From NCBI RefSeq assembly GCF_000178835.2, contig NC_015275.1, positions 1,633,001-1,697,000 of the forward strand: a stretch of 64,000 bases of DNA, in the 5' to 3' direction. This stretch comes from Cellulosilyticum lentocellum DSM 5427. GTDB taxonomy: Bacteria > Bacillota > Clostridia > Lachnospirales > Cellulosilyticaceae. Below, piece after piece: positions 40,976-62,465 of the stretch (positions are counted from its first letter, which is position 1; every line of letters starts with the position of its first letter). Under the pieces are notes generated by a model. The model made no database searches. It was not told where the DNA came from and was given only the letters and a program-made list of their open reading frames with translations. The position numbers were made by a program, and so were the translations under genes.

Positions 40976-40984
40976 GTGATTGGC

Positions 40985-42067: not shown

Positions 42068-42082
42068 TAAAGGAGAATAAAC

Positions 42083-42343
42083 ATGGAATTAGAGTTTTAT
42101 GGCATGATAACGGACATCATGTACTGTAAAGAATATGAAATATGTAAATTTACTATAAGAATGCTGAGCAAGAGACAGTATAGTGTAAGATGTACAATCG
42201 TAAGAAGAAATTTAGATCTATATAAAAAGCTAGAACTAGGTAAGATGGTTAGAGTGGTGGGAGAGCTAACCGAGTATAGAAAGCCTTCTAGTGATGGAAC
42301 TGAGTTAGTTGGTAATAATTTTTATGTATCTAGTATTGATTAG
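42083..42343 (+). CDS. Small OB-fold-like protein
   Basis: 86 aa with alternating strands (MELEFYGMITDIMYCKEYEI, GKMVRVVGELTEYRKPSSDG) reminiscent of an OB fold such as single-strand DNA-binding proteins. AAAGGAG lies before the start. Function uncertain. Confidence 0.5.
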   Translation: MELEFYGMITDIMYCKEYEICKFTIRMLSKRQYSVRCTIVRRNLDLYKKLELGKMVRVVGELTEYRKPSSDGTELVGNNFYVSSID

Positions 42344-42353
42344 TAATGAAATA

Positions 42354-42386
42354 CATAAAGGGCTTAGTGTAACAGCTAGGCCTTTA
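42354..42386 (+). terminator. Hairpin before tail chaperone
   Basis: AAAGGGCTTAG/CTAGGCCTTTA stem with a TATTAAT tail. Probably a weak terminator or attenuator. Confidence 0.5.
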
Positions 42387-42405
42387 TTAATAGGAGGAAT
42401 TTGAA

Positions 42406-42783
42406 GTGAATAAACAAGAAGATGAACTATGTATAAGTATTACTTTATTTGATGAAGATGATAGCAAGAGAAAAGAATACAGGACTTCAAGTATAAGTGT
42501 TGAGAGTTATGAACAGGCTTATGAACTGAATGAGAAGATGCTTGAAGGTGTTTGTAATAAGGATGATCTATTACATGAATTGATTAATTTTATAATAGAG
42601 TTTTTTGATAACCAATTTACATATCAAGATGTGGTATTCGGTATTAAACCAGAAGATTTAAGTAAGCTAATAAGTGTTTTGTTTATGATATGTGGAAGCC
42701 AGATGGCTTTTGAAGGACAACAAGAAAAAGCAGAAAGATTATTAGGAGCAGCAACTAACTTATACAATGAGGTGGTGAAATAA
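42406..42783 (+). CDS. Probable tail assembly chaperone
   Basis: 125 aa, GTG start after AGGAGG. LHELINFIIEFFDNQFTYQD followed by LSKLISVLFMIC resembles tail assembly chaperones of siphophages. It lies one base before the tape measure gene, its invariable place. No slippery frameshift site is obvious at its end. Confidence 0.7.
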   Translation: MNKQEDELCISITLFDEDDSKRKEYRTSSISVESYEQAYELNEKMLEGVCNKDDLLHELINFIIEFFDNQFTYQDVVFGIKPEDLSKLISVLFMICGSQMAFEGQQEKAERLLGAATNLYNEVVK

Positions 42784-42784
42784 G

Positions 42785-47575: not shown

Positions 47576-47580
47576 AGCTT

Positions 47581-47748
47581 AAGCCTATCATCCAAGCTAA
47601 GGCTAAGGAAAGACAAGGTACAAGAAATGATTTAAACATAGTGCAGAAATCTGCACCAAGTGAAAATAAATCACTTAAAGCGCGTGACGAACTAGCCAAA
47701 CTAGCAGGAGTATCCCACACTATAGAAAAGGAAAGAAGCTTAGCGTAA
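47581..47748 (+). pseudogene. Remnant of a ParB-like/HTH plasmid-type protein
   Basis: The frame has no start and reads KPIIQAKAKERQGTRNDLNI, then ENKSLKARDELAKLAGVSH and a stop. This is the segment seen in the middle of ParB-like nuclease/HTH proteins of conjugative and phage elements (ARDELAKLAGVS helix-turn-helix). It marks a deletion joint directly after the tape measure gene. Confidence 0.6.
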
Positions 47749-47768
47749 AAACTAAGGTTCTTTCCTTA
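47726..47768 (+). terminator. Terminator after tape measure region
   Basis: AAGGAAAGAAGCTTAG pairs with CTAAGGTTCTTTCCTT with one mismatch, followed by ATTAT. Confidence 0.75.
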
Positions 47769-47845
47769 TTATACATATATCGGAAAGTTGGCAGTTGAAG
47801 TATAGACATATTCTAACTTGGCTATAATATATCTGAGGTGATTAT

Positions 47846-48004
47846 ATGAAATACATTATTTTACTTAATGGTAAACCTATAGAAGAAGCTACACCAGAAG
47901 AACGAAGGGCACTAGAAGAAAAGGCTAAAAAATCTTTTGAGAAACATTTAGGACTTAAGTACATAGGAGATGCAATGGCAAATAATATAGAAGATAAAAG
48001 GTAG
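47846..48004 (+). CDS. Small PIEE-motif protein, copy 1
   Basis: 52 aa (MKYIILLNGKPIEEATPEER...). GAGGTG before the ATG. It shares the 'G.PIEE.(T/S).EE' beginning with two other small genes in the element (53693 and 54248). Function unknown. Confidence 0.65.
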   Translation: MKYIILLNGKPIEEATPEERRALEEKAKKSFEKHLGLKYIGDAMANNIEDKR

Positions 48005-48030
48005 GGCAAAAAGCCTTACCCTTCTTTTTT
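47997..48030 (+). terminator. Terminator
   Basis: AAGGTAGGGC/GCCTTACCCTT stem and CTTTTTT. The 48031-48339 stretch after it holds no convincing gene. Confidence 0.7.
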
Positions 48031-48339
48031 GCCTAAAAACGTAGATTTTTTCAGGTAGATTAACTAATAATAAGACAAAATCGTGTGGTTGTGAAGGAGT
48101 TAGGATAGCAAAAGAAGAGAGAGACAGGATACAATCAAGTAATTTAGTAGAAAATACATATAACCGCCACACTTAGGACATTTTACCATATACATTCTCT
48201 CCTTTATAAAATACAGATAACAGACTGTGTATTGAACAAACAGCCATTCATTATGGTATTATTGTCCCCCCTTGGAAAGGGCGTTATCACTTAACCCCTT
48301 AAATGACTTCATAAGCATGGCCATTTCCTAATTTGATTA

Positions 48340-48364
48340 TAAAAAACAGGTACACCTTGTTAAT
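48340..48364 (-). terminator. Terminator of minus-strand secreted protein
   Basis: On the minus strand AACAAGG/CCTGTT is followed by TTTTTTAT. Confidence 0.55.
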
Positions 48365-48374
48365 AAAAATGGGG

Positions 48375-48773
48375 TTATTGTTTTAGCACATATATGACAA
48401 TCATTTTTTCAGTTTCACCTATTCTTTTAATGGAAAATAGGTTGTATTGAAGTTCATTCAATTGAAAGCTGTCTCCAAATTCCTTAACAGCATCTAAACT
48501 ATCAAACGTTTTGATTATCTTTTCTTGTAATACATACACGACTTTATAATTATTTGTATTATCTATTCGTTCTATATAATCCAAGGTATAATTAAGCATA
48601 TTAATTTTTATTGTATCACCTTGTTCTTTGAGTAGATTGAAGTCTTTATAGATTTTTATTACTTTTTTAGGAACTTCTCTTTCAGTATGAGTGTTTGCAA
48701 ATAATGGCATACTAACCATTATAAGAATTATTATACTAAGCGTAAAAGTATAGTTTGTACGAAGTTTATTCAT
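48375..48773 (-). CDS. Secreted protein with tandem repeat domain
   Basis: 132 aa from ATG 48773, chosen for AAGGAGGTG. Signal peptide (residues 1-28, ends SMPLFANTH). The mature part is two copies of a 45-residue unit: KVIKIYKDFNLLKEQGDTIK...KVVYVL and KIIKTFDSLDAVKEFGDSFQ...IVIYVL. Divergent from another secreted protein gene. Not recognised; likely lysogenic-conversion cargo. Confidence 0.7.
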   Translation of the reverse strand: MNKLRTNYTFTLSIIILIMVSMPLFANTHTEREVPKKVIKIYKDFNLLKEQGDTIKINMLNYTLDYIERIDNTNNYKVVYVLQEKIIKTFDSLDAVKEFGDSFQLNELQYNLFSIKRIGETEKMIVIYVLKQ

Positions 48774-48906
48774 AAAATTCACCTCCTTAATCAACATAGT
48801 AATAATATAGACAATACCATAAATAAATAAAATTTTCAATATTTATTGATTTGTATACAAAATTATAGTATATTAAGATTATTACATCTATTTAGGAGGT
48901 TTAAAT

Positions 48907-49245
48907 ATGAAAAAACTATTTTTAAAATTATTAATTATGACATCTTCTCTAATGCTTTTATCAGCTCCTGTCTTTGCAACAACACCATCCGTAGCTATTG
49001 AACAACAGTTGATTTCTAATGCTCAAGAGACTTCAGTATCACCAAGAGCTGTTTTTAGGTATCCAAAGACAGTTAGAAGAACTTATCAATCAACCTCAGA
49101 AATTCCAAATAGTATTTTTTATGAAGAATATCATAACGTGTATGGAACATGTAGAGGGACTTTATATTTCGATTATGCCCAAAGTTTATCAAACGGATGG
49201 ATTGAAGTTTTTTATACAGGGACTATGATGTCAAACAATATTTAG
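48907..49245 (+). CDS. Small secreted protein, unknown
   Basis: 112 aa. Signal peptide MKKLFLKLLIMTSSLMLLSA with cleavage after VFA; mature part about 87 aa with YPKTVRRTYQSTSEIPNSIF and CRGTLYFDYAQSL. It has one Cys, so it is not a disulfide-rich toxin. AGGAGGT upstream. Family not recognised. Confidence 0.7.
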   Translation: MKKLFLKLLIMTSSLMLLSAPVFATTPSVAIEQQLISNAQETSVSPRAVFRYPKTVRRTYQSTSEIPNSIFYEEYHNVYGTCRGTLYFDYAQSLSNGWIEVFYTGTMMSNNI

Positions 49246-49332
49246 TCTAATACATAATTTATATTCAAAGAGTAAAAGAGGACGTATGAAAGGGCCTCTA
49301 TAATCGGGCAACATGAAGTAGAAATAAAGGTA

Positions 49333-49376
49333 AAAAACGCATCTAATCACTAACATTGTATTAGATGCGTTTTTTT
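49333..49376. terminator. Terminator
   Basis: ACGCATCTAAT/ATTAGATGCGT perfect 11-bp stem between A6 and T7 tracts. Confidence 0.93.
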
Positions 49377-49464
49377 ACATATAATTTTCAATATTTAATT
49401 ACTGAAAATTATTGAATCAAGTAATATAATTAGTTCATAAACAAATATTTCATTTGATAACCGA

Positions 49465-49956
49465 GTGTTTATTTTACAACAATTTTCCGATGAGGTGGTA
49501 AATAGATACTTATTTGATGCTGAGCCAATAAGTAATTTAGAAGAAGCCGATGAAATTATAGACTTCTATTTACAACCCGAGCCACGAGCACAGCATCGGT
49601 GGGTTATTGTATTAAAGAATAATGACGTTAAAATAGGAACTTGTGGATTTCATTGTTGGAGCAAAAAGGGAAATTGCGTTGATATAGGCTATGATTTACA
49701 AGAAGAATATTGGGGAAATGGCATAATGACAGAAGCATTAAAAGTTATCATATCATTTTGTATCAACAAAATGGGAGTCCATAGAATAAATGCACATATT
49801 TCTGTAGATAATGCAAGATCCATACATTTAACACAAAAACTTGGTTTTGTTTTTAATAGAAAGACTAAAATGTATTCTTTTAGGGGAAAAGAATATCTGC
49901 ATAATATTTATACTCTAGACTGCCTTTCGAAAAATGAGTGTCAGCTAAACAAATAG
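49465..49956 (+). pseudogene. GNAT acetyltransferase, N-terminus missing
   Basis: 163 aa, RimJ/RimL-like. The acetyl-CoA part is intact (IGYDLQEEYWGNGIMTEALK, HRINAHISVDNARSIHLTQK, LGF). The frame begins within strand 1 (ILQQFSDEVVNRYLF), lacking the usual ETERLxLR start. No ribosome site precedes the GTG at 49465. Probably 5'-truncated and inactive. Confidence 0.65.
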
Positions 49957-49992
49957 TTATTTAAATCAGTAATAAAAAGATAGTTTCTGTAG

Positions 49993-50024
49993 AGAGCCAT
50001 AGATTAATCTCTGGCTTCTTTTTT
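49993..50024 (+). terminator. Terminator
   Basis: AGCCATAGA/TCTCTGGCT stem (one mismatch) and CTTCTTTTTT. Confidence 0.8.
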
Positions 50025-50124
50025 ATGCCCCAAATGCGAATTTTATTGTGGTACAGTAAATTCGACAAAAACTTATGTAGATACATGGTATTATTAAGTA
50101 ATTATTAATCAAAGGAGTGATTTT

Positions 50125-50865
50125 ATGGAATTATTTGAAGTTACTTTTAGTCTCATTGTAGGTCTTGTGTGCTTTATATTAGGAAGTATTTTGAAAATAG
50201 GGTTTCCAGCGTACATAAGCAAAAAATTTGATAATATAGCAACAAAGGAAGATTTAGTAGCATTAACAGAGATACCAGAAAAAATTAAACTTGATTTTCA
50301 AAAAGAATTTGATGATTATACTAGAAGTAACACATTTCAAAATGACTTTTATTATAAAAGGTATACGGAGTTATACGCACCTCTCTATAGTATTGTATGT
50401 CAATCAGAAGGGTTCAGGGTATTTTCAGAAGATACCCAAAATAAAGCGTATAGTTTTAATGAATTTCCATTTCTAGAAATATGTAAAAAGAGAAGCCGAA
50501 CAAAGACAAATCTCTTTAATCAACAAGTTCTATCACATGAGGAAATAGTGGTAGAAGATGAATTAACAAAATTCAACAAAAAAGAACTTAGCCAATTCAT
50601 AATAGATCACGAAGAACTGGCATCTCCTAAATTAATAAAACTAGCTATATTTTATAGATATGTAAATGAAAATTATGGAGGAAGTGAAAAAAAAGTAGAA
50701 GAAGCATATATAGAATACTTTAATAAAAAAGAACTACAGTTAATAAGGGAAATCGTATCTCAGATAGTTAGAGAATATAATCAATTAAGAAGAGATTTAA
50801 ATCTTGATTATGATCAACATGAATTAAATAATGGTGAATTTAACAATGAAATTTATAGAGCATAA
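50125..50865 (+). CDS. Membrane-anchored protein of unknown function
   Basis: 246 aa. One N-terminal membrane helix (5-30), then FDNIATKEDLVALTEIPEKI and a long helical cytoplasmic part with DFYYKRYTELYAPLYSIV. The form is seen in small accessory genes of phages and defence islands, but I do not recognise a named family. AAAGGAG lies before the ATG. It precedes the DUF488 module by 170 bp. Confidence 0.65.
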   Translation: MELFEVTFSLIVGLVCFILGSILKIGFPAYISKKFDNIATKEDLVALTEIPEKIKLDFQKEFDDYTRSNTFQNDFYYKRYTELYAPLYSIVCQSEGFRVFSEDTQNKAYSFNEFPFLEICKKRSRTKTNLFNQQVLSHEEIVVEDELTKFNKKELSQFIIDHEELASPKLIKLAIFYRYVNENYGGSEKKVEEAYIEYFNKKELQLIREIVSQIVREYNQLRRDLNLDYDQHELNNGEFNNEIYRA

Positions 50866-50924
50866 CTAGATGTTTTAATAATAAAAAAATTTACACAAAT
50901 AATCATTTTAAAAGGTGTAAAAGC

Positions 50925-51022
50925 CACGAATTCGTGTTATACTATGAAAATACACGAATTCGTGGTAGCGGAATGCACGTACACGAATTCGTGTAGTAAA
51001 TGAAAAGATTAATGAATTCGTA
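50925..51022 (+). promoter_or_regulatory. Array of four palindromic operators
   Basis: CACGAATTCGTG occurs exactly at 50925-50936, 50953-50964 and 50982-50993. A weaker copy, ATGAATTCGTA, lies at 51012-51022. Centres are 28, 29 and 29 bp apart. GTTATACTAT (TATACT -10) lies between the first two. The array ends 15 bp before the HTH-DUF488 gene, whose HTH is the natural candidate to bind it. Confidence 0.8.
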
Positions 51023-51037
51023 AATTGGAGTGATTAT

Positions 51038-51685
51038 ATGAGTGAATTAAATAATGTTATTACTATTGCAGAAGCTGCTCAAACTTGGGATATGGCGACT
51101 TCTACATTACGCCATGCTATCAGCGATAATAAATTCAATGAGAGTGAAGTAAAAAAGAGCGGAGGTACATGGCTAATTCTTAAAACGGCTATGTATTCAA
51201 AATATGGTGACCCTAATGTAAAAAAGGGAAAAAGAGATGTAACCACACTATATACTATAGGTTATGAAGGGTTAACTATAGAATCATTTATATCTAGACT
51301 AAAAAAAGCAGGTGTGAACTATATTTTAGATGTAAGGGAGATACCTTTAAGTAGGAAAAAAGGGTTTTCCAAAAACACATTAGCAGAGGAACTAAAAAAA
51401 GCAGATATAAATTATAGTCATTTTAAAGTACTTGGAAGCCCTAAAGATATTAGAGAAAAACTAAAGGCTACACATGACTATGATAGTTTCTTTAAAGATT
51501 ATAAAAGGTATATATCTACACAGAAAGAAACTGTGGAGATATTAAATTCTGCAATAAGTGCTAATTTAAATATGAAGTTTTGCTTACTATGCTTTGAGAA
51601 AGACTATACTACATGTCACAGAATAGCTTTAGCACAGGAACTTATTAAGGGGAAGGAAGATAAGATGTGTATTAATAATTTATAA
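51038..51685 (+). CDS. HTH-DUF488 fusion protein
   Basis: 215 aa. Residues 1-60: a helix-turn-helix (ITIAEAAQTWDMATSTLRHA, GGTWLILKTAM). Residues 68-205: DUF488, with TIGYEGLTIESFI, DVREIPLSRKKGFSKNTLAE, FKVLGSPKDIREKL and the conserved Cys pair LLCFEKDYTTCHR. DUF488 is an uncharacterised, possibly catalytic family. The fusion suggests a self-regulating enzyme; TGGAG lies upstream. The stop is 26 bp before the partner gene. Confidence 0.85.
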   Translation: MSELNNVITIAEAAQTWDMATSTLRHAISDNKFNESEVKKSGGTWLILKTAMYSKYGDPNVKKGKRDVTTLYTIGYEGLTIESFISRLKKAGVNYILDVREIPLSRKKGFSKNTLAEELKKADINYSHFKVLGSPKDIREKLKATHDYDSFFKDYKRYISTQKETVEILNSAISANLNMKFCLLCFEKDYTTCHRIALAQELIKGKEDKMCINNL

Positions 51686-51711
51686 TAGTGGTATTTAGGG
51701 GAGGAAACTAA

Positions 51712-52560
51712 ATGATTCCAGATTTGCAGAAGAAAAAGATGTTGATGATTGTAAAAACCTATCCTACACCTAGCATAAAATATGGGGAAACAGTTTGTAC
51801 TGCAGGAATAACGGATGAAGGTGAATGGATAAGATTATATCCTTTAAGATATAGAAGATTAAATAAAAATCAGCAATTTAATAAATACACATGGATAGAA
51901 GCGACAGTTTATAGAAATCCTAAAGATTTAAGGGTGGAAAGCTATAAAATTGACGAGTCAACATTGAAAGTGTTAAATAAACTAGATGCAAAAAAAGACA
52001 TGGATGAACGTAAGAAATGGATATTACCATTGTGCAAAAATTCACTAGAAGAAGTTATAGAATCACATCAACAATTCAATACTTCCTTAGGAATATTCCA
52101 ACCTAAAGAAGTACTGGATCTAGTAATTACACCAGCAGATAAAAACTGGTCTTCAGAACAAGAAATGTGTTTAAACCAAATGGGGTTATTTGAAGATCAA
52201 AATATAGTGAAATTACAGAAAGTTCCATGGGATTTCTCATTTAAGTTTACCTGTAATAATGGTTGCAAATCTGTACATAAGTTAAAAATAACAGACTGGG
52301 AGATTTATCAAACGTATAGGAATTTTAAAAAATATTATGGAGATGAAAAAGTAGCATTAAAGAAGCTATCAGAAAAATGGATGAACTATTTTAATAATGA
52401 TAATAAAGATTCATATTTTATTGTTGGTACGGTGCATCCATGGCCTACTTTTATAATATTAGGAGTAGTATCATATTCTAAACAAAAAGTGAATAAAGAA
52501 AAAATCAAGACTAGTAGTAAAGTTAATAATCCTATAGAAGGACAGATAACGTTTATATAA
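51712..52560 (+). CDS. Conserved partner of DUF488 protein
   Basis: 282 aa, soluble. The N-terminus (MLMIVKTYPTPSIKYGETVC, then TAGITDEGEWIRLYPLRYR) and C-terminus (FIVGTVHPWPTFIILGVVSY) are strongly patterned and recall a family I have seen next to DUF488 genes, but no function is known to me. A central Cys/His group (FTCNNGCKSVHKLK) could bind metal. GGGGAGG before the start; in one operon with the HTH-DUF488 gene. Confidence 0.65.
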   Translation: MIPDLQKKKMLMIVKTYPTPSIKYGETVCTAGITDEGEWIRLYPLRYRRLNKNQQFNKYTWIEATVYRNPKDLRVESYKIDESTLKVLNKLDAKKDMDERKKWILPLCKNSLEEVIESHQQFNTSLGIFQPKEVLDLVITPADKNWSSEQEMCLNQMGLFEDQNIVKLQKVPWDFSFKFTCNNGCKSVHKLKITDWEIYQTYRNFKKYYGDEKVALKKLSEKWMNYFNNDNKDSYFIVGTVHPWPTFIILGVVSYSKQKVNKEKIKTSSKVNNPIEGQITFI

Positions 52561-52577
52561 AAGAATAGTTTAATCTA

Positions 52578-52606
52578 GAGCCATGGGTTATTCATGGCTC
52601 ATTTTG
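52578..52606 (+). terminator. Terminator of DUF488 operon
   Basis: GAGCCATG/CATGGCTC perfect 8-bp stem followed by ATTTTG. Confidence 0.8.
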
Positions 52607-53079
52607 ACATCGATCCTACAGTGGTAATAGAATTAACAATAAAAAATAACAAATTCATCATAAAACAAAATCTATTGCATACAATAAAAGTGTAGAATAC
52701 ATCATTACCTATCTAGTTGGTCCTGGTTAGGTAAAGAAGTAAAAACAGCAGTAAGATAATTGTTATAGTGTCACTTGAGTAGACGTTTAGTGTAATATTA
52801 AGCATAATATTTTGTGGACGTAGGAAGTTGATAATTTGTGAGATTATCTTTTTCATGACATCCTCTTTTTAATTATGTTCTCTTTTATACTTTATGCTAT
52901 AAACAATGACGCTATAACTAAATCTTATAAATATGTAAGATAGTTTTATTTTGATGTTCAAATATAAAATAAAAGAATAGTTTTAGTAGGACCAGGTGAA
53001 AACTTGGTTCTGTTTTTGTATAATAGAGAAAATATTTATTTTATAGAATTATAAATTTGAATTTGAAAGGAGTTCAAAA
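52607..53079. other. Intergenic stretch with leader hairpin
   Basis: No convincing gene. AGGACCAGGT/ACTTGGTTCT (52988-53010, with G-T pairs) and a T5 run form a terminator-like hairpin upstream of the next gene. A TGGTCCTGGT block at 52719-52728 resembles its complement, so the region may be decayed cargo. Confidence 0.4.
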
Positions 53080-53547
53080 ATGGCAAATTTAGAAGTAAAC
53101 GTGGAATATATAGAGCAACAGACGATATACGGACTATGGCAGAAATCAAACGATAAAACAATTTCTAAAGACATAAAATCTCTTTCCCAAAAATACCATA
53201 TGGCGGTTTCAGTACCAGAGGGAGAGGTACTTCCCTATTTTGTTCTATCTAGAAACTACGATGAACAAAGTAACAATTTTGAAATGTTTATAGGCAGTAC
53301 TTTTGATAAAGACGGCTTGGAAACCTTTATACTCCCTGCCAGTGAGTATGCTAAAATTACAGTAAAGCCGAAACTTGGCTTTTTGTGGGGTGCTTCCATT
53401 GGAGAAGCAAAACGATATTTTTACACAAAATGGCTACCTAAAAATTCTTATGAAGCTTTGAATATGGAATATGAATATCACACAGAAAAAAGCACTGGAA
53501 ATCAGCCAACGATTGATATTATTTTTGCTATTCAAAGAAAGTCCTAA
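53080..53547 (+). CDS. GyrI-like/effector-binding domain protein
   Basis: 155 aa. Pattern VEYIEQQTIYGLWQKS...YFVLSRNYDEQSNNFEMFIG...ASEYAKITVKPKLGFLWG, then a final strand matches stand-alone GyrI-like (AraC effector-binding, Cass2-like) domains. These bind hydrophobic small molecules and some inhibit gyrase. AAAGGAG before the ATG. Its role in the element is unknown. Confidence 0.72.
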   Translation: MANLEVNVEYIEQQTIYGLWQKSNDKTISKDIKSLSQKYHMAVSVPEGEVLPYFVLSRNYDEQSNNFEMFIGSTFDKDGLETFILPASEYAKITVKPKLGFLWGASIGEAKRYFYTKWLPKNSYEALNMEYEYHTEKSTGNQPTIDIIFAIQRKS

Positions 53548-53692
53548 ATTCCAGTTTATCGTAATAAATAGCTATTAAATTAGCAATTAAAAAGATAGTT
53601 CGTTAAGGCTAGAGAAAACTAGCCTTATTTTAGTGGATAAATTTCAAGTTGCTAGTCAATAATTTAATTATCAATCATAAAGGAGGATTATA

Positions 53693-53860
53693 ATGGCAGC
53701 TATAGTTGTGAATGGATGGAATGTTAGAAGATTTATAGGAGGGGTTCCTATAGAAGAATTCACTCAAGAAGAACTAGATGCATATTTTGAAAAGGCATTA
53801 GATGCAGCATTTTTAGCAATAGGATATGTGCCTGTAAAAAATGATATAAGTAAGGATTAA
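53693..53860 (+). CDS. Small PIEE-motif protein, copy 2
   Basis: 55 aa (MAAIVVNGWNVRRFIGGVPI...EEFTQEELDAYFEKAL). AAAGGAGG is an ideal site. Related to copy 3 at 54248 along its length (N.W...R.I...PIEEF..EE...A.GYV). Confidence 0.7.
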   Translation: MAAIVVNGWNVRRFIGGVPIEEFTQEELDAYFEKALDAAFLAIGYVPVKNDISKD

Positions 53861-53886
53861 TTTTTAAAAGGATGAGAGGGGATAAT

Positions 53887-54210
53887 ATGGGAATTGTAGA
53901 AACATTTTTTGATGATTTAAAGAAGAATATTAATGAAACTCTTAAGGATATGATAAGGGAGGTTATACATGAAGAAACAACAGATAAATGGCTTAATAAA
54001 AAGCAGCTTGCTGAATATTGGGGTGTGAGTCAAGGTTATATAAATAAAAATCTTAATGAAATCCCTCACTCTAAATCAACTCCAATTGCTTTTAAGAGGT
54101 CACTTGCAGATCAGTGGAGAATGGGAGAACTTAAACGATTAGAAGTTGAGAAGATGAACAAAGTAAGTATCAAAAATTATAAGAGTAACAACTTTAAAGT
54201 AGGACAGTGA
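53887..54210 (+). CDS. Second excisionase-type HTH protein
   Basis: 107 aa from ATG 53887 (GAGAGGGG upstream). Helical N-terminus (FDDLKKNINETLKDMIREVI), then an HTH (WLNKKQLAEYWGVSQGYINK). Same plan as the protein at 36299 but with little identity. By position near attR it is a candidate excisionase. Confidence 0.7.
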   Translation: MGIVETFFDDLKKNINETLKDMIREVIHEETTDKWLNKKQLAEYWGVSQGYINKNLNEIPHSKSTPIAFKRSLADQWRMGELKRLEVEKMNKVSIKNYKSNNFKVGQ

Positions 54211-54247
54211 TGTAGCTACAGGTACAAAAGGTAAGGAGGTCGAGAAT

Positions 54248-54481
54248 ATGGCCAAAAAGAAGTTTGATGTAAATGCTTGGACTATAGAAAGATATATAAA
54301 TGATATCCCAATAGAAGAGTTTTCAGAAGAAGAAAAAGAAATACTATTTACTCATATGCGTATTGATGCAGTCCATGCAATAGGATATGTATTTGAACAT
54401 GAAGATGAAGAAGAAGATACTTTATTAAGAATTAAGGCATCAGAAATAATAGATAGACATAGCAAGGGATTAAGTGAATGA
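54248..54481 (+). CDS. Small PIEE-motif protein, copy 3
   Basis: 77 aa. NAWTIERYINDIPIEEFSEE aligns with copy 2 (NGWNVRRFIGGVPIEEFTQE). An acidic insert EHEDEEEDTLL follows GYVF. Ribosome site AAGGAGG. Confidence 0.7.
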   Translation: MAKKKFDVNAWTIERYINDIPIEEFSEEEKEILFTHMRIDAVHAIGYVFEHEDEEEDTLLRIKASEIIDRHSKGLSE

Positions 54482-54569
54482 TTTAAACTTATGTAAGTAC
54501 CTAAGAATCTACAAATTAAGACTTCAAAAGGTGCTATACTGTATAAAAGATTTGACAGGGGGAATACAT

Positions 54570-54782
54570 ATGAAGTTTGGGATGAGAACACCTAGTTTAA
54601 AGAGGTCTATTAAAGCAAGGACTACAGGAAAAGCTAAAAGAGCAATTAAGAAAGCTATTGATCCTACTTATGGGAAAAAGGGAATGGGGATGATTAAGAA
54701 CCCTAAGAAGGCTATTTATAATAAGGTTTATAGAAAGACTACTTTTTCTCTAGGAGATTTGTTTAAGAAACTATTTAAATAG
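54570..54782 (+). CDS. Small basic phage protein
   Basis: 70 aa from ATG 54570 (AGGGGGA upstream). Lys/Arg-rich (MKFGMRTPSLKRSIKARTTG, AIDPTYGKKGMGMIKNPKKA). Members of this style occur near one end of many Bacillota mobile elements. Nucleic acid binding is likely from charge, function unknown. Confidence 0.65.
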   Translation: MKFGMRTPSLKRSIKARTTGKAKRAIKKAIDPTYGKKGMGMIKNPKKAIYNKVYRKTTFSLGDLFKKLFK

Positions 54783-54791
54783 TCTTTTTAG

Positions 54792-54822
54792 GGGACAAAT
54801 TTAGGACAAATTTGGGACAAAT
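54792..54822 (+). repeat. Integrase arm-type repeats, right
   Basis: GGGACAAATTTAGGACAAAT, identical to the left copy, plus a third unit TTGGGACAAAT immediately after. Direct orientation in both ends. Confidence 0.7.
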
Positions 54823-54878
54823 AAGTAATAAAAAATGAATAAAATACACTATAAATCATAAAAGTAAAACATTAAAAA

Positions 54879-54920
54879 GTACGGTTTATCAATACTTTGT
54901 ATAGTATGATGAACCGTACT
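54879..54920. repeat. Inverted repeat next to attR
   Basis: AGTACGGTTTATCAATAC pairs with GTATGATGAACCGTACT (stem about 15 bp, two mismatches). It lies 6 bp inside attR. It may be a terminator for the element's right end or part of attP. Confidence 0.65.
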
Positions 54921-54926
54921 CTATTT

Positions 54927-54946
54927 AGAAGTGATATAGCAAAATA
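54927..54946 (+). other. attR core
   Basis: AGAAGTGATATAGCAAAATA, identical to attL. Followed by A, so the reading frame RSDIAK-stop is kept with TAA. Confidence 0.92.
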
Positions 54947-54961
54947 AAACGAATAGATTTG

Positions 54962-55007
54962 AGCCTTACAATTACTTGATTTTCAATAATTGTGAGGCTT
55001 TTTATTT
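54962..55007 (+). terminator. Original pur operon terminator, displaced
   Basis: GCCTTACAATTA/TAATTGTGAGGC stem with TTTTT. It begins 16 bp after attR, so before integration it stood just behind purD. Confidence 0.88.
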
Positions 55008-55074
55008 TGAATCAATGATTAGGAAGTTTAATTAATAGCACTATGTAGTTTTTGCAGAAATGTTCTTACAGAAA

Positions 55075-55103
55075 TTGACATTTACTTTAAAAAGATGTAC
55101 AAT
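55075..55103 (+). promoter_or_regulatory. Sigma-A promoter of NlpC/P60 gene
   Basis: TTGACA, 17 bp, TACAAT. It shows that translation starts at 55168, not in the longer frame from 55060. Confidence 0.85.
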
Positions 55104-55167
55104 ATCTGTAACAAAATGTAATAAATTGTTAATATATACAACTTGTGGTGTGAAAATGGAGGTTTTT

Positions 55168-56076
55168 ATGTGGAATAGAAAGAAAATAACATTGATATTA
55201 GGAGCTAGCATGATGATGCTTCCTCAGTGTGCATTTGGTAAAACAGTAGGAACTGTTAATGCAAATGTTCTTAATGTGAGATCAAATCCTACAGCAACCT
55301 CATCTATTGTTAAGAAGGTTTATGCTAAAGAGTCAGTACAGATTGTTGATTTGATAGGAACAAGTGATGTATGGTATAAAGTTGATATTCAAGGTACAAA
55401 AGCTTATGCTAAAAGAGAATACCTAACACTCACAAAGGCTGATGGGACTGTTAAAGCAACAAGTTTAAATATAAGGAGCTATCCGGATACTCAAAAGTCA
55501 AAAGTTATTGGAAGTTTGAAAGGTGGAACTAATGTTGAAGTTTTATATAAAGTTAATGACTTTTATAAGATTATGGTTAATGGCAGTGCCGGGTTTGTGT
55601 CGAGTCAATATATAGACTGTAAGTATGGAGCTTATATTAGTACCCAGCCACTCAGTAATGTTGGAGAGATTCCTGTATGGACAGGTGGCACAACAACCAC
55701 TAATAGTTCAAAAGGTGAAAAAGTGGTTGATACAGCCATGAAGTATTTAGGAAACCCTTATGTATATGGTGGGACCAGTCTAACAAATGGGACAGATTGC
55801 TCTGGTTTTACACAAGGTGTTATGAAAATTCATGGAATAACTATTCCAAGAACTTCAAGTGACCAAAGCAAAGTGGGAGCATTAATTGCTAAAGAAAATC
55901 TTCAAAAAGGAGATTTATTATTCTTTGGAAAAAGTACATCTGCGATTAGTCATTGTGGCATATATATAGGAGACGGTAAGATGATTCATGCAAGTACACC
56001 ATCAACAGGTATTATTATTTCAGGTGCTTATACATCTGGCGGCGTACCACTTCAAGTAATTAGAAGAGTAATATAA
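55168..56076 (+). CDS. Secreted NlpC/P60 cell-wall endopeptidase with SH3 domains
   Basis: 302 aa. Signal peptide (1-25, ends CAFG). Two bacterial SH3 domains (about 28-92 and 95-155: GTVNANVLNVRSNPTATSSI, GTVKATSLNIRSYPD). A catalytic NlpC/P60 domain follows (185-302) with Cys in NGTDCSGFTQGVMK and His in SHCGIYIGDGKMIHAS. It cleaves peptidoglycan stem peptides. GGAGG lies 6 bp before the ATG. It is chromosomal, just outside attR. Confidence 0.93.
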   Translation: MWNRKKITLILGASMMMLPQCAFGKTVGTVNANVLNVRSNPTATSSIVKKVYAKESVQIVDLIGTSDVWYKVDIQGTKAYAKREYLTLTKADGTVKATSLNIRSYPDTQKSKVIGSLKGGTNVEVLYKVNDFYKIMVNGSAGFVSSQYIDCKYGAYISTQPLSNVGEIPVWTGGTTTTNSSKGEKVVDTAMKYLGNPYVYGGTSLTNGTDCSGFTQGVMKIHGITIPRTSSDQSKVGALIAKENLQKGDLLFFGKSTSAISHCGIYIGDGKMIHASTPSTGIIISGAYTSGGVPLQVIRRVI

Positions 56077-56381: not shown

Positions 56382-57821
56382 TTAGCCATTATTGCTGTTA
56401 TTAATCTGATTGTACCAAACAATAAGATTCTCTTTTAAAAGTGCAATACCTTTTTGAATCATTTCACAGGAAAGGTGGCTGTAGCCTAAAATAATACTGT
56501 TTTTGGGGTAATCTTTTCTTAGAGAGTGAATCCAAATAGGATAAATAGCAACACCGTTTTGATAAAGAAATTTTATTAGAGGCTCTGTAAATTCTACATG
56601 TTTAAACATAGCTATTAAATGTAACCCCGTTGATTCTCCTTGAATTGTTACGGAAATATCGAAGGTACTTAGGAGTGATTCAATAAGTGTATTATGGCGC
56701 TTAAAATATAGCTTGCGCATTTTAAGTATGTGTTTATTAAGGGACATATTATCTATAAATTTAGAAAGAAGCAGTTGATTAAGGGTGTTGGTGAAATAGT
56801 CACTTCTTTTTTTATATTCGCAAATGCAATCAACCAATTCGTAAGGAAGAATCATGTAGCCTATACGAAGAGAAGGTGAGAGAATTTTACTAAAAGTACC
56901 TACATAAATGACACGATTAGGAGCCAAATCATATAAGGCAGAAACAGGAGAGCCTAAATAATGAAATTCACTGTCATAGTCATCTTCTATAATATAGCAA
57001 TTTTTTTCTTCAGCATATTTAATTAATTCAATTCTACGTTGAATAGAAAGTAGACCACCTAATGGGTATTGATGTGAGGGTGTCACAAATATAAATGAAG
57101 GATTAATATTTTCAGGAAGAAAAGCAGTAAGAATACCTTGTTCATCTACTGGAACACTATAATGATTGATGCTAGCGGCTTCAAAGGTTTTTCTGATTTC
57201 ATAATGCAAAGGATCTTCAATGATATAGGAGGTATCTTGAGTCAGTAGAAGTTTCGATAGAAGAGAGAAGCTTTGAATGGACCCACTGGTAATAATAATT
57301 TGTGAGGGATCACAAATTAGACCACGTGTTCGTTGGAGGTAGGTACAAATAGAGGTGCGTAATTCAGGAGTTCCTTGAGGCGTACCATAATCAAAGCAAT
57401 TAGGGGATGTCTCTAAAGCAAGTTGAGATTCTAAAGTATACCATTTTTTTAGGGGGAATAAGTCTAGTGCAGGAATGCCTGAACGAAAATCTATGGTTTT
57501 TTCATTAGAAATAGAGTTTTTTGAAATTAGAGGAGATGATAAGTTTTGAGAAGGAGTCGTTAGAGTGTTGTCTAATAAGATGCCTTCTGCAACAAAAGTA
57601 CCAATAGAAGGTTTACTAATAATGTATCCTTCTAATAATAGTAAATTGTATGCCTCTAAAATCACGTTTCGAGAAATATGTAAGAAGATAGCTAATTCTC
57701 TAGAGGAAGGTAGTTTATCACCTGATTTTAATTGACCATTTAATATTTTACTTCGTAATTGCTGATAAACTTGTCTAATTAGGGGGAGTTTTTTTGTTTT
57801 ATCTATTTCTATCCAAATCAT
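56382..57821 (-). CDS. MocR-family transcriptional regulator (GntR-aminotransferase)
   Basis: 479 aa. N-terminal GntR winged helix (QVYQQLRSKILNGQLKSGDK, LPSSRELAIFLHISRNVILE) and a class I aminotransferase-like domain with ITSGSIQSFSLL, FVTPSHQYPLGG, EDDYDSEF and the PLP-lysine region GTFSKILSPSLRIGYM. Members sense amino acids or B6 vitamers through PLP. Start at 57821 after AAGGA. Divergent from the amino-acid operon next to it, with direct-repeat operators between. Confidence 0.93.
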   Translation of the reverse strand: MIWIEIDKTKKLPLIRQVYQQLRSKILNGQLKSGDKLPSSRELAIFLHISRNVILEAYNLLLLEGYIISKPSIGTFVAEGILLDNTLTTPSQNLSSPLISKNSISNEKTIDFRSGIPALDLFPLKKWYTLESQLALETSPNCFDYGTPQGTPELRTSICTYLQRTRGLICDPSQIIITSGSIQSFSLLSKLLLTQDTSYIIEDPLHYEIRKTFEAASINHYSVPVDEQGILTAFLPENINPSFIFVTPSHQYPLGGLLSIQRRIELIKYAEEKNCYIIEDDYDSEFHYLGSPVSALYDLAPNRVIYVGTFSKILSPSLRIGYMILPYELVDCICEYKKRSDYFTNTLNQLLLSKFIDNMSLNKHILKMRKLYFKRHNTLIESLLSTFDISVTIQGESTGLHLIAMFKHVEFTEPLIKFLYQNGVAIYPIWIHSLRKDYPKNSIILGYSHLSCEMIQKGIALLKENLIVWYNQINNSNNG

Positions 57822-57857
57822 AGAGAGTATCCTTTCGTAAAAAGTTGGTTTATTCAA

Positions 57858-57892
57858 TGTGGTACTAGAAAAAAAGTAAAATTGTGGTACTA
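57858..57892. promoter_or_regulatory. MocR operator direct repeats
   Basis: TGTGGTACTA at 57858-57867 and again at 57883-57892, 25 bp apart in the same orientation. MocR proteins often bind direct repeats. They lie between the divergent starts, and the second copy sits in the likely -35 region of the operon. Confidence 0.75.
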
Positions 57893-57964
57893 AAAATAAA
57901 TTTTAGTATATGTTATATTATATTAGAAAATTTTAAAAAAATAAACTATACTAAGGGTGATTTT

Positions 57965-58879
57965 ATGGAAAAAGAGTTTAGAAATACTGTTATAGACTAT
58001 ATAGGAAACACGCCATTGATTCAGTTAAGAAGAGTGGCGTCAGAAGATATGGCTGATGTGTATGTGAAATTAGAAGAATTTAATGCAGGGGGTAGCGTAA
58101 AAAGTAGGGTTGCAATTCAGATGATTAGAGAAGCCCAAGAAAAAGGGGTGTTAGTTCCTAACTCTAGACAGACAATTATAGAGCCAACAGGTGGAAACAC
58201 AGGAATAGGATTGGCTATGGCTGCGAGCATATTAGGGTATAATTTAATATTAGTTATTCCTGATAATTATAGTAAAGAAAAGATTAGGATGTTAGAAGCA
58301 TATGGTGCGAAGGTATATTTATCAGATAGTAGTACAGGAAATGATTCACATATTAGATTAGTTAAAGAAATGTTAAATGAACATCCAGAGTATATATGGC
58401 TAGATCAGTTAAGTAATATGGGAAATGTAGAGGCACACTATAGGGGGACGGGAAAGGAAATTGTTAGTGAATTGGAACAAATAGACTGTTTTGTTGCAGG
58501 AATGGGAAGTAGTGGAACTATAAGTGGTGTTGGAAAAGCTATTAGGGAGAAGTTTAGTAATGCAAATATAGTAGTAGTGCAGCCTAAAGGATGCCAGTCT
58601 TTAGAAGGTAATTCAGCTCCTCATAAAATCCAGGGTCTTTCAATAGGAATGATACCGCCTATTCTTCAAGGCGAGGTTATTGATAATGCCATTGATATAA
58701 CTTATGAAGAGGCTAATGAAATGATGAAACAATTAGCATGTAAAGAAGGCTTACTTGTGGGAATTTCAGCAGGTGCTAATATTTGTATAGCATTAAAGTT
58801 TGCAAAAGAATTAGGAAGGGGAAAAGTAGTGGTTACAGTCGCTCCGGATAGTGGGAGAAGTTATTTAGAACATTATTAA
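57965..58879 (+). CDS. Cysteine synthase-like PLP enzyme
   Basis: 304 aa, CysK/OASS fold type II. The PLP lysine lies in GGSVKSRVAIQM (usually GGSVKDR), the substrate loop is EPTGGNTGIGLAMAAS, the phosphate loop GMGSSGTISGVGKAI and SAGANICIALKFA is present. It would add sulfide or another nucleophile to O-acetylserine. The D-to-S change after the lysine and a specialised operon suggest that the product may not be ordinary cysteine. Start at 57965 after AAGGGTG. Confidence 0.88.
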   Translation: MEKEFRNTVIDYIGNTPLIQLRRVASEDMADVYVKLEEFNAGGSVKSRVAIQMIREAQEKGVLVPNSRQTIIEPTGGNTGIGLAMAASILGYNLILVIPDNYSKEKIRMLEAYGAKVYLSDSSTGNDSHIRLVKEMLNEHPEYIWLDQLSNMGNVEAHYRGTGKEIVSELEQIDCFVAGMGSSGTISGVGKAIREKFSNANIVVVQPKGCQSLEGNSAPHKIQGLSIGMIPPILQGEVIDNAIDITYEEANEMMKQLACKEGLLVGISAGANICIALKFAKELGRGKVVVTVAPDSGRSYLEHY

Positions 58880-58937
58880 TGGGAGATAAATAGTTTATTG
58901 ATGGGGACGATATAGGAATAAAAGGGGAAATGGACGG

Positions 58938-59918
58938 ATGGTTAAAAAAATTTATAAAATAATAAAAAATCAAATAGAAAATTTATTTTATTTATATCTA
59001 CCGAAAGAAGAATGGGATGATATCGGAATGATTACTGATATTAAAAATCAAGTTATAGATGAAATATGTACGCGTGTAGGAGATGATTTAATAGCACTAA
59101 GAGAAAAAGATCCTGCAGCAAATGACTTGGAGTATGTTTTTAATTCATATTTGAGTTTTAGAGCAGTTGTATATTATAGAATGGCTAATGCGATTTACTA
59201 TGAAAAGACATTAGAAGAAATTAAACGTAGACAAATCTCACGTTTAATTTCTGAAGAAGCTAAAGTAAAGACTCATGTAGAAATTCATCCAGCAGCTCAG
59301 ATTGGAAAGAGATTTGTAATTGATCATGGTGTAGGTAGTGTGATTGGAGAAACTGCAATTATAGGAGATAACTGTTATTTGTTGCAAGGTGTAATTATTG
59401 GTTCTAGAAGGATAGCTAATAATAAGCCGGGGAAAAGACATCCTACAATAGGTAATAATGTTCAGATAGGTGGAGGTGCAAGAATATTAGGACCTATAAA
59501 TATTGGAGATGATGTCGTCATTAATCCTAATTGTGTTGTAACGACGAATATTCCTTCTCAGACTGTAGTCTCTATTTCTAATCAGATGCAAATTATGTAT
59601 AACAAGGATAGGGAAAAGGTCTTAATTTATGGAGTAATACCTAAAAGTAACAATAAAATAGAAATACATGGGAGAAATTTAACTAAACCAAGGGTTTATT
59701 TGGTTGATGAAAATAATAATATAATATTAGGTGTTCAGCTTGAGGTGACTACTATTGAAGATAGTGTAATATGCTTAACAATTAAATTTACTGAAGAAAA
59801 AAAGAGTCCAGAATGCAAGAAAATGAATATACGAATTGATTTTGAGGATGATTTTCAAATAATTATTATAGAGGCAGTGGCATTAGGAAGAGAGGGTTAT
59901 AAAGAACAGATAGGATGA
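58938..59918 (+). CDS. Serine acetyltransferase with extra C-terminal domain
   Basis: 326 aa. CysE/EpsC-type: helical N-terminus, then a left-handed beta-helix with EIHPAAQIGKRFVIDHGVGS, VIGETAIIGDNCYLLQGVII and KRHPTIGNNVQIGGGARILG. It makes O-acetylserine for the enzyme before it. Residues about 235-326 are an added beta domain (IEIHGRNLTKPRVYLVDENN) resembling an IPT/Ig fold and absent in normal SATs. It replaces the usual C-terminal tail that docks in cysteine synthase. Confidence 0.88.
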   Translation: MVKKIYKIIKNQIENLFYLYLPKEEWDDIGMITDIKNQVIDEICTRVGDDLIALREKDPAANDLEYVFNSYLSFRAVVYYRMANAIYYEKTLEEIKRRQISRLISEEAKVKTHVEIHPAAQIGKRFVIDHGVGSVIGETAIIGDNCYLLQGVIIGSRRIANNKPGKRHPTIGNNVQIGGGARILGPINIGDDVVINPNCVVTTNIPSQTVVSISNQMQIMYNKDREKVLIYGVIPKSNNKIEIHGRNLTKPRVYLVDENNNIILGVQLEVTTIEDSVICLTIKFTEEKKSPECKKMNIRIDFEDDFQIIIIEAVALGREGYKEQIG

Positions 59919-59947
59919 TATTAAATATTAAAAGAGAGAGGTTTGCC

Positions 59948-60682
59948 ATGAAGAAGTTAAATCAAAATAAGCAAATGTTTATATGGGGACTAAAAAAAGG
60001 CATACCTATATTAATAGGTTTTATACCTATATCAATTGCATTTTCGGTAATTGCTGTTCAAACAGGATTATCTAAGCTTGAATGCATTGTCATGTCAATA
60101 ATGTTGTTAGCAGGAGCTAGTCAATTGATGGCAGTGAATATGTTATCTGTCGGTGCTGGAAGTTTAGAAATTATAATTGCTACATTAATTATTAATATTA
60201 GGCATTTAATTATGAGTACTTACATAATGAATCGATTAAAAAATGTACCTATATGGTTGCAATGGATATTGGCATTTGGCGTAACAGATGAAACCTTTGG
60301 AATTATGTCTATGGAAGAAGATAGCCATTGTAATCAATACTTTTTTGGTGGATTAGCATTAATAACATATGTTTCTTGGATTGGTGGAACCATATTGGGG
60401 ACAGTTATCATAGATATTATTCCAACAAGTATTTGTTCAAGTATGTCTATTGCACTATATGCTATGTTCATTGGTTTAATTATGCCAAGTATTCATGAAG
60501 ATTTTAAAGTTTTATATGTAGTACTTATCAGCATCTGTATCAATATATTATTAGGAATAATTATGAAGTCTAGCTGGGCAATTGTTTGTTCGACTATACT
60601 AGGTGGTGTTATAGGTGCCGAAATATTACGTGATACTAATGAAGAAGGGAAATACACTATGAGCAAAATCGACAAGGAATAA
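59948..60682 (+). CDS. azlC: AzlC-family amino-acid exporter subunit
   Basis: 244 aa, about seven helices. GIPILIGFIPISIAFSVIAV, MLLAGASQLMAVNML and INIRHLIMSTYIMNRL match AzlC. With AzlD it exports branched-chain amino acids and analogues. ATG 59948 is chosen for GAGAGAGG; a longer frame overlaps the acetyltransferase end. Confidence 0.9.
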   Translation: MKKLNQNKQMFIWGLKKGIPILIGFIPISIAFSVIAVQTGLSKLECIVMSIMLLAGASQLMAVNMLSVGAGSLEIIIATLIINIRHLIMSTYIMNRLKNVPIWLQWILAFGVTDETFGIMSMEEDSHCNQYFFGGLALITYVSWIGGTILGTVIIDIIPTSICSSMSIALYAMFIGLIMPSIHEDFKVLYVVLISICINILLGIIMKSSWAIVCSTILGGVIGAEILRDTNEEGKYTMSKIDKE

Positions 60683-60729
60683 AAGGGATTTTACATAAAT
60701 TAAAATTTGCTTCAAATGGAGGGAACTCA

Positions 60730-61041
60730 ATGGATATACAAATAGTTTTTATATTAATAGGAATGTCTTTAGTAACATATATTCCAAGAGTACTGCCTGT
60801 AATGATATTAGATAAAATGCATATATCTCAGAAGTTAGAAGGTATTTTAAAAGCTATACCCTATGCAGCATTAGGATCTTTGATATTTCCAAGCATTTTA
60901 TCAGTAAATACAAATTATCCTATAATAGGTATAGTAGGTGGATGTGTAGCAGTCATACTTTCTTATGCTAAGCTAAATATAACATATACTATTTGCGGAA
61001 CAGTAGCGGTAACTATTTTAATACAGTTATTTTTTATTTAA
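60730..61041 (+). CDS. azlD: AzlD-family amino-acid exporter subunit
   Basis: 103 aa, three to four helices. The conserved TYIPRVLPVMILDK near the N-terminus and YAALGSLIFPSIL match AzlD. It forms the exporter with AzlC, which ends 47 bp upstream. TGGAGGG before the ATG. Confidence 0.88.
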   Translation: MDIQIVFILIGMSLVTYIPRVLPVMILDKMHISQKLEGILKAIPYAALGSLIFPSILSVNTNYPIIGIVGGCVAVILSYAKLNITYTICGTVAVTILIQLFFI

Positions 61042-61051
61042 GGAGATATTA

Positions 61052-61816
61052 ATGATAAAAACAGAAAAAATATATTATGATGATTTGTATTTAACAACAT
61101 GTATTGCTACAGTAGTAGAAGTTAGTGAAATGGGTATTGTATGTGACCAAACGGTAGCTTTTCCAGAAGGAGGAGGACAACAGGCAGATAAAGGATGTTT
61201 TTTAATAGAAGATAATTTTAAGCAAAGGTTAAAAATTCTTTTTTTTAATGTAAAAAAAGGAGTAGGAGATGTTTTCTTGGAGCAAGACTTTCCAACTATA
61301 TCTGTTAATACTCCTATTTATCATTATATAGAGGTTGAATATCTAAGATATTTTAAAGTAGGAATGAAAGTGAAGATTTGTATAGATGTAGAAAGGCGAG
61401 CTAGATTAACTATTTCACATACAGCTATTCACCTTGTGCTAATGGCAATTGATAGAGTAAGGAAAGGAATAATAACGTATGTTAAAGGGGCAGATATTAG
61501 GGAAGATTTAGCTAGGCTGGATTTTTTTATACATGATAAATTGAATGATGATGAGATAATGAAAATTACAGAATGTGTAAATGAACTTATTTTAAACGAC
61601 TACAAAATAGAAACATATGCTCATGTTAAGCAAAAAGAAGCTGTTTACTGGAAATGCTTAGATTATGTATGTGCATGTGGAGGAACACACTTACCTTCTA
61701 CCAAATATATTGGTAATGTGCGTATCACTAAGAAAAGTAAAGGAAAAAATCTACAAAGAATTACAATAGAATTCCCTAATCATGTGTTACCAATGGAATT
61801 GTATCATAAAGATTAA
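61052..61816 (+). CDS. AlaX-type alanyl-tRNA editing protein
   Basis: 254 aa. Stand-alone editing domain of alanyl-tRNA synthetase: FPEGGGQQADKG, the zinc site HTAIH (ISHTAIHLVLMA) and Cys/His in CACGGTHLPSTKYIGNVRI. Such enzymes remove serine, glycine or other wrong amino acids from tRNA. It follows azlD by 10 bp and so belongs to the operon, suggesting protection from the amino acid made here. Confidence 0.9.
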   Translation: MIKTEKIYYDDLYLTTCIATVVEVSEMGIVCDQTVAFPEGGGQQADKGCFLIEDNFKQRLKILFFNVKKGVGDVFLEQDFPTISVNTPIYHYIEVEYLRYFKVGMKVKICIDVERRARLTISHTAIHLVLMAIDRVRKGIITYVKGADIREDLARLDFFIHDKLNDDEIMKITECVNELILNDYKIETYAHVKQKEAVYWKCLDYVCACGGTHLPSTKYIGNVRITKKSKGKNLQRITIEFPNHVLPMELYHKD

Positions 61817-61895
61817 GAAGGTTAAATTTTTATTAGGGATTCCACTTTTAGGGTACATATAATAGGTGTAAAAACATAACAAACAACTGCCATGG

Positions 61896-62308
61896 TATAA
61901 TCACCACAGTATCAACTTGACGAACTGACCGGGCTTGGACTAAGTCTCAATCTGCCTTGCAGGTACCTCTAGCTTTAAGGAAAATGTTCGCTTGTGTGCT
62001 GCAAGGGAGGCACCACTTATAAGTTGTCAAAAAACGTTTTTATAAAGTCTACAATTAAATAAAGTTTTAAACCAGAGTCTTAAAGTCTTAGTTTCCTAAC
62101 ATAAGGGTGCACCGGCTAAGACTTTTAAGAGCTCCTCACTCTTCGTTGAAACTTTTATAACTTATGCTATCAGGCCTTTGAAGTGCAAGGCGTACTGAGG
62201 AGCTATGACTATGCCCTTTTTTGGCAATAGCATAAGTAAGAAAAAGTGAATAATGAAGTGCTGGAGCATAAAAAGAGCCAAATGACAAATGTTGTTTGGC
62301 TCTTTTTG
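61896..62308 (+). ncRNA. Candidate structured noncoding RNA(s), unidentified
   Basis: About 400 bases with no coding frame. It opens with an extended -10 (TGGTATAAT, 61893-61901; another TATAAT at 61858) and closes in a strong terminator. Helices: CAACTT/AAGTTG (61913/62021), CCTTGCAG/CTGCAAGG (61955/61999), CTTAAAGTCTTAG/CTAAGACTTTTAAG (62079/62116), AGCTCCTCA/TGAGGAGCT (62130/62196), ACTTATGCTAT/ATAGCATAAGT (62160/62227). The last two interleave, as in a pseudoknot. It may be one RNA or two. I could not assign it to a known class. Confidence 0.55.
62271..62308 (+). terminator. Terminator of the structured RNA
   Basis: AGAGCCAAA/TTTGGCTCT perfect 9-bp stem, then TTTTT. It separates the RNA region from the ligase gene, whose own promoter must lie in 62309-62465. 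Confidence 0.9.
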
Positions 62309-62465
62309 CATGCTAAAGTCAGATTGCCACACTAATAGCATTAAAAAATAATTTATGACAAATTCGTAATGAAAATAGTAAGTGGATTGTTATAAAGAAT
62401 TGTTAATCTAGATATATAGCAAGTTTATAAAAATTTAACTGAGCGTATCAAAGGGAGAATGAGCG

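Follow-up and report, generated by a model that had tools for sequence, protein, structure and literature searches.

A putative mobile cassette for making, exporting and editing out a beta-substituted alanine in Cellulosilyticum lentocellum

Why should a serine acetyltransferase and a cysteine-synthase-like enzyme share one operon with an amino-acid exporter and a free-standing tRNA deacylase? The question is posed by a locus in Cellulosilyticum lentocellum DSM 5427, within a 64,000-nt stretch of its 4.71-Mb genome (NC_015275.1, positions 1,633,001 to 1,697,000; hereafter the window, in whose numbering coordinates are given). Five plus-strand genes lie there head-to-tail, with intergenic gaps of 58, −4, 47 and 10 nt, and encode members of the CysK, serine O-acetyltransferase (SAT), AzlC, AzlD and AlaX families; a gene for a MocR-type regulator is divergent from them. 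An earlier note, made from this DNA alone, had described both the tight five-gene order and the divergent regulator with direct repeats, and open reading frames (ORFs) and family matches bore it out on each. We found the same families linked in two further lineages and consider it moderately probable, judging from gene content and phylogeny, that the locus is a horizontally spread cassette in which a beta-substituted alanine derived from O-acetylserine would be made and exported, and tRNA mischarged with it deacylated.

The earlier note had proposed looking for the same order in other genomes and held that its lack would count against the idea. All six genes, MocR included, occur in identical order in Cellulosilyticum ruminicola, between different flanking genes and with protein identities of 80% (CysK), 57% (SAT), 76% (AzlC), 59% (AzlD), 67% (AlaX) and 63% (MocR). 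A tblastn search of 72,556 plasmids with CysK, SAT and AlaX gave the same top two records for both CysK and SAT, namely a 473-kb Salmonella India plasmid and Xenorhabdus sp. TH1 plasmid unnamed2. Both plasmids belong to Enterobacterales, and both are also among the just seven plasmid records in which AlaX has a relative. On the Salmonella plasmid the order is CysK-SAT-class I methyltransferase-AzlC-AzlD, with AlaX divergent and 79 bp from CysK; AzlD is unannotated there and was detected by Pfam. An integrase-like gene lies beside this cassette, whose DNA had no match in E. coli genomes, whether near or distant. The 40-kb Xenorhabdus plasmid bears a CysK-SAT-DMT exporter block and, ~7 kb away, AlaX with a complete valyl-tRNA synthetase (ValRS) gene directly 3' of it (locus L131, 950-3847; 83% identity to Proteus ValRS); a gene annotated as serine ammonia-lyase lies between the two groups. 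As a guess, the extra ValRS may be a resistance copy that duplicates the target. Biosynthetic enzymes, a transporter and a free-standing deacylase are linked, then, in four genomes from three lineages.

This recurrence bears on the idea that unrelated amino-acid genes simply gathered beside a prophage. Although the region upstream is prophage-like and the flanks differ between the two Cellulosilyticum species, the genes are tightly packed, their order has been kept at 57-80% protein identity and the same families recur together, differently ordered, in three lineages, so that a chance neighbourhood is strongly disfavoured and, in our judgement, very improbable.

The cassette is rare and patchily distributed. 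The set is missing from the other five genomes of the genus, where, as in the other sampled genomes of the family, the AlaX profile had no match, and a full-length match to the window SAT was confined to C. lentocellum and C. ruminicola. Searches with SAT, AlaX and CysK revealed no further cassette among ~390 Clostridia, 390 order-level genomes and as many as 200 from the phylum, these wider collections being scanned once or as samples. The AlaX matches from the phylum were ORFs of alanyl-tRNA synthetase (AlaRS) length (~720-930 aa), and the top CysK matches from the phylum carried EPTSGNTG. A CysK scan of genome contigs returned C. ruminicola as the sole cassette, the rest being ordinary CysKs or distant matches; viral contigs searched with the cassette CysK and AlaX contained no relative, and phage records gave matches only at or below ~43% identity.

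The first gene (57965..58879, +) encodes a predicted beta-replacement enzyme dependent on pyridoxal 5'-phosphate (PLP), assigned to an EPTGGNTG subfamily from its PALP/CysK-like match, tree position and substitutions. In a tree of 50 CysK proteins, the four cassette members formed one clade (SH-aLRT support 100, stem 0.77), separate from the clostridial, Bacillus and own-genome enzymes. EPTGGNTG is present in all four, compared with EPTSGNTG in 55 and TGGNTG in none of 65 others, and all four have SVKSR in place of the SVKDR of canonical cysteine synthases. The four agree with one another, but not with the near-invariant residue of 61 ordinary enzymes, at 14 positions; for 12 of the 14, the cassette residue is present in none of the 61. 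Among the changes are S47 (for D) and G76 (for S), both found in 0/61, as well as H129 and S182; we take S47 to be the residue after the PLP lysine, G76 to belong to the substrate loop and S182 to the phosphate loop. Scored for family membership against curated NCBIfam cut-offs, the enzyme fell below those for cysteine synthases (cysKM, 321.3 versus 344.15 bits; cysK, 303.4 versus 350.95 bits; cysM, 258.5 versus 394.2 bits), for the SbnA-type 2,3-diaminopropionate synthase (TIGR03945; 235.5 versus 349.95 bits) and for cystathionine beta-synthase (CBS).

The nearest solved-structure relatives of the cassette CysK are cysteine synthases, and its solved relatives include beta-cyanoalanine synthase. 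The latter is among the beta-substituting enzymes of the CysK family and lends some weight to a role in detoxification, in which O-acetylserine would trap a toxic small nucleophile such as cyanide, hydroxylamine or an amine, and the amino acid so formed would be exported and kept off tRNA as waste. An inducible MocR switch would fit such a role, as would an orphan AlaX gene in Cetobacterium that adjoins hcp; however, the hcp neighbour occurs only where the cassette CysK is absent, the three cassettes contain no other detoxification genes and a methyltransferase step would be unexpected for waste. Taken together, we regard detoxification as improbable.

The second gene (58938..59918, +) encodes a predicted SAT with a catalytic part at approximately residues 46-215. 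A tree of 49 SAT proteins again placed the four cassette members in one clade (SH-aLRT 99), apart from the enzymes of clostridia, Bacillus and the genome itself. A C-terminal extension of about 100 residues (window ~59590-59918), shared only by the two Cellulosilyticum cassettes, had no Pfam match and is possibly a regulatory domain. We had also considered whether the end of this SAT, which is without isoleucine, indicated a lost cysteine synthase complex, an idea dropped when the housekeeping SAT (L027) proved to be without it as well. The housekeeping set lies elsewhere in the genome and consists of cysE, a cysK adjoining an Rrf2-like gene and a CBS-like gene adjoining a cystathionine-lyase-like gene. 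As a separate observation, a 538-aa ORF of the same genome (L036, 1456-3072) has a CBS/CysK-like enzyme continuous with an S-adenosylmethionine-methyltransferase-like region, the domains being read by eye, and it adjoins a cystathionine-lyase-like gene.

That cysE and cysK are already present elsewhere weighs against a role in cysteine/serine homeostasis, in which the operon would supply a further, inducible pair of enzymes for cysteine synthesis and an exporter for the overflow, and AlaX would clear only ordinary Ser-tRNA(Ala) as serine or cysteine rises. So do the distinct clade, the altered near-invariant positions and the sub-threshold cysteine-synthase scores of the cassette CysK, the methyltransferase in the Salmonella set and the extra ValRS in the Xenorhabdus set, and the simultaneous synthesis and export of an amino acid would be an odd form of homeostasis. 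We regard this explanation as rather unlikely but not negligible: SAT and CysK are enzymes of the cysteine pathway, cysteine synthases are the closest solved relatives, AlaXp proteins clear Ser- and Gly-tRNA(Ala) (PMC11295145) and the EamA family is named for the E. coli cysteine/O-acetylserine exporter (PMC11005379).

The last gene of the operon (61052..61816, +) encodes a predicted AlaX-family deacylase that would act in trans on aminoacyl-tRNA. It has an AlaRS-editing-like domain, the metal motifs HTAIH and CGGTH and, around DFPTISVN, the insertion of its subfamily. HxxxH and CGGTH are kept in all four cassette proteins and in the Cetobacterium copy, and the insertion (like DFPSIKVN) is common to the cassette proteins and to plasmid orphans from Cetobacterium and Comamonas but does not occur in the ordinary AlaX and AlaRS domains used for comparison. 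The window protein scored 111.9 bits against a curated AlaXM cut-off of 300 bits and, by these sequence features, belongs to a divergent subfamily. Using the approximately unbiased test, a single clade of cassette and orphan proteins was not rejected (P = 0.65) and had a likelihood above that of the free tree, whereas the four cassette proteins as their own clade were rejected (P = 0.0085). Because of this rejection, simple co-inheritance of AlaX with the CysK/SAT pair does not hold, and on these trees AlaX is either older than that pair or mobile independently of it. On the Cetobacterium plasmid (L129, 7452-11536), a MocR gene, its product 32% identical to the window MocR, diverges from the orphan AlaX gene, which is followed by hcp (hydroxylamine reductase), and there is no cassette-type CysK; this arrangement resembles immunity without production. 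The copy from Comamonas looks degraded because it contains an in-frame stop and CGGIH.

The regulator gene (56382..57821, −) encodes a GntR winged helix-turn-helix fused to an aminotransferase-like domain, as identified from the ORF and domain matches, with the PLP-lysine motif GTFSK. In the spacer between it and CysK are two direct repeats of TGTGGTACTA (57858-57867 and 57883-57892, +), a probable MocR operator; the two copies of the GTGGTACTA direct repeat in this spacer are 25 bp apart. The counterpart spacer in C. ruminicola, also beside a divergent MocR gene, has GTGGTAC three times at a spacing of 25/26 bp. Two or more copies of GTGGTAC arose in 0 of 5,000 dinucleotide-preserving shuffles of either spacer, for a heptamer picked post hoc after the sequence was seen, and the 10-nt repeat alone was not significant (P = 0.16). 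The repeats are convincing because the motif is conserved, together with its spacing, in C. ruminicola. The window MocR also passes the PdxR cut-off (419.8 versus 320 bits), although PdxR is probably a mere subfamily label because the adjoining genes are not pyridoxine genes.

Between SAT and AlaX, family matches identified AzlC (59915..60682, +; native start perhaps 59951), the large subunit of a predicted amino-acid exporter, and AzlD (60730..61041, +), its small subunit. In the pathway we favour, SAT would convert L-serine to O-acetylserine, and CysK would swap the acetate of O-acetylserine for a small nucleophile, giving a beta-substituted alanine other than ordinary cysteine. The product would be exported by AzlCD, or by the DMT-family carrier in Xenorhabdus, and AlaX would hydrolyse tRNA, most likely tRNA(Ala), that AlaRS had mischarged with it. 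MocR would switch the operon through the paired GTGGTACTA sites, probably in response to a PLP adduct of the product or of a precursor, and the amino acid itself might serve as an antimetabolite or a signal. The exchange of AzlCD for a DMT exporter is sensible because resistance to 2,3-diaminopropionate in B. subtilis comes both from over-expressed AzlCD and from AexA, an EamA-family exporter of C3 amino acids (PMC11005379).

The earlier note had likewise proposed that the operon makes or handles a toxic or signalling amino acid (or an excess cysteine/serine analogue), exports it and protects translation. We regard this idea as supported in part. Of the explanations considered it has the best comparative support, from the re-assembly of the set in two unrelated lineages with other gene orders, one with another exporter family, as well as from the separate CysK and SAT clades, the near-invariant changes in CysK and the presence of housekeeping cysE, cysK and CBS-like genes, while homeostasis keeps the modest probability given above. 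Several points weigh against it. The operon has no gene that would supply the nucleophile, the Xenorhabdus AlaX is distant from CysK, and only three independent loci were found. The metal and substrate motifs of AlaX are ordinary-looking, so plain Ser-tRNA(Ala) clearance also fits, and the cassette AlaX proteins do not form their own clade. Finally, the cassette is known here from its genes, and its product is inferred from them.

A more specific version, in which the product is 2,3-diaminopropionate or its N-methyl derivative beta-N-methylamino-L-alanine (BMAA) and a Salmonella-type cassette finishes the synthesis through its methyltransferase, is a long shot. The route to BMAA proposed for cycads combines a CysK-like enzyme with a methyltransferase, and BMAA is charged by AlaRS and escapes AlaRS proofreading (PMC9414260); this evasion would therefore leave a gap that fits a dedicated AlaX. 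If correct, the genes would together supply both a free diaminopropionate-type amino acid and a translational antidote to it.

Beyond the operon, a gene for D-Ala-D-Ala ligase downstream was rejected as a member, being ~650 nt away and not found beside the C. ruminicola cassette. Between AlaX and this gene lies a structured-looking non-coding element of ~400 nt (window 61840-62320, +), which has at least 26 copies in the genome at 75-83% identity, none in 25 relatives and no Rfam match. Several copies terminate in a hairpin and T-run with differing stem sequences, and 11 of 79 predicted pairs have two-sided, pairing-preserving changes across eight copies; it could be a dispersed RNA or a mobile element that is as yet undescribed. 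On the other side, a prophage-like region (window 40250-56076), with a tape-measure-like ORF at 42785 and an NlpC/P60 protein at 55060, stops just short of the MocR gene.

We found no locus in the literature, of which coverage was partial, that joins AlaX with AzlC, MocR, cysteine synthase or biosynthetic clusters. The deacylase FthB and the transporter FthC protect the producer of 4-fluorothreonine (PMC7162832), and a cassette that makes, exports and edits out its own amino acid would be an AlaX-based counterpart of FthB self-protection: a natural antimetabolite pathway equipped with its own antidote at translation, in a compact and mobile set of genes from which a new small amino-acid antimetabolite would be predicted. 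The tie between AlaX and a biosynthetic operon makes natural AlaXp substrates other than Ser- and Gly-tRNA(Ala) a directly testable question. It also offers a handle for genome mining, in which a TGGNTG-type CysK beside this SAT, an amino-acid exporter and AlaX could point to amino-acid natural products hitherto overlooked in bacteria associated with guts and insects.

Several components resemble known systems and depart from them. The cassette CysK shares with CysK/CysM cysteine synthases and CBS 40-50% identity and the character of a fold type II, PLP-dependent beta-replacement enzyme, but it is below all of their curated cut-offs and has TGGNTG, SVKSR and other class-specific changes. The window MocR shares with PdxR/GabR-like regulators the domain architecture, PLP-lysine motif, divergent target and direct-repeat sites, yet has no pyridoxine genes as neighbours. 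AlaX has the fold family and the HxxxH and CGGTH motifs of AlaXp (AlaX-M) alanyl-tRNA editing proteins; unlike them, it carries an extra insertion, scores below the AlaXM cut-off and lies within an amino-acid biosynthesis and export operon. The AzlCD of B. subtilis is also a two-subunit amino-acid exporter and confers 2,3-diaminopropionate resistance, but it is controlled by AzlB and, in that account, unlinked to CysK/SAT or AlaX genes (PMC11005379), whereas the window pair belongs to a MocR-linked operon. At the level of the whole locus, the 4-fluorothreonine locus of Streptomyces cattleya and MA37 is alike in being a biosynthetic locus for a translation-competent analogue with its own transporter and free-standing aminoacyl-tRNA deacylase (PMC7162832). 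There, FthB is related to ProXp-ST1 and acts on tRNA(Thr) (PMC11295145), whereas here the deacylase is of the AlaX family and is combined with CysK/SAT and with AzlCD or a DMT exporter.

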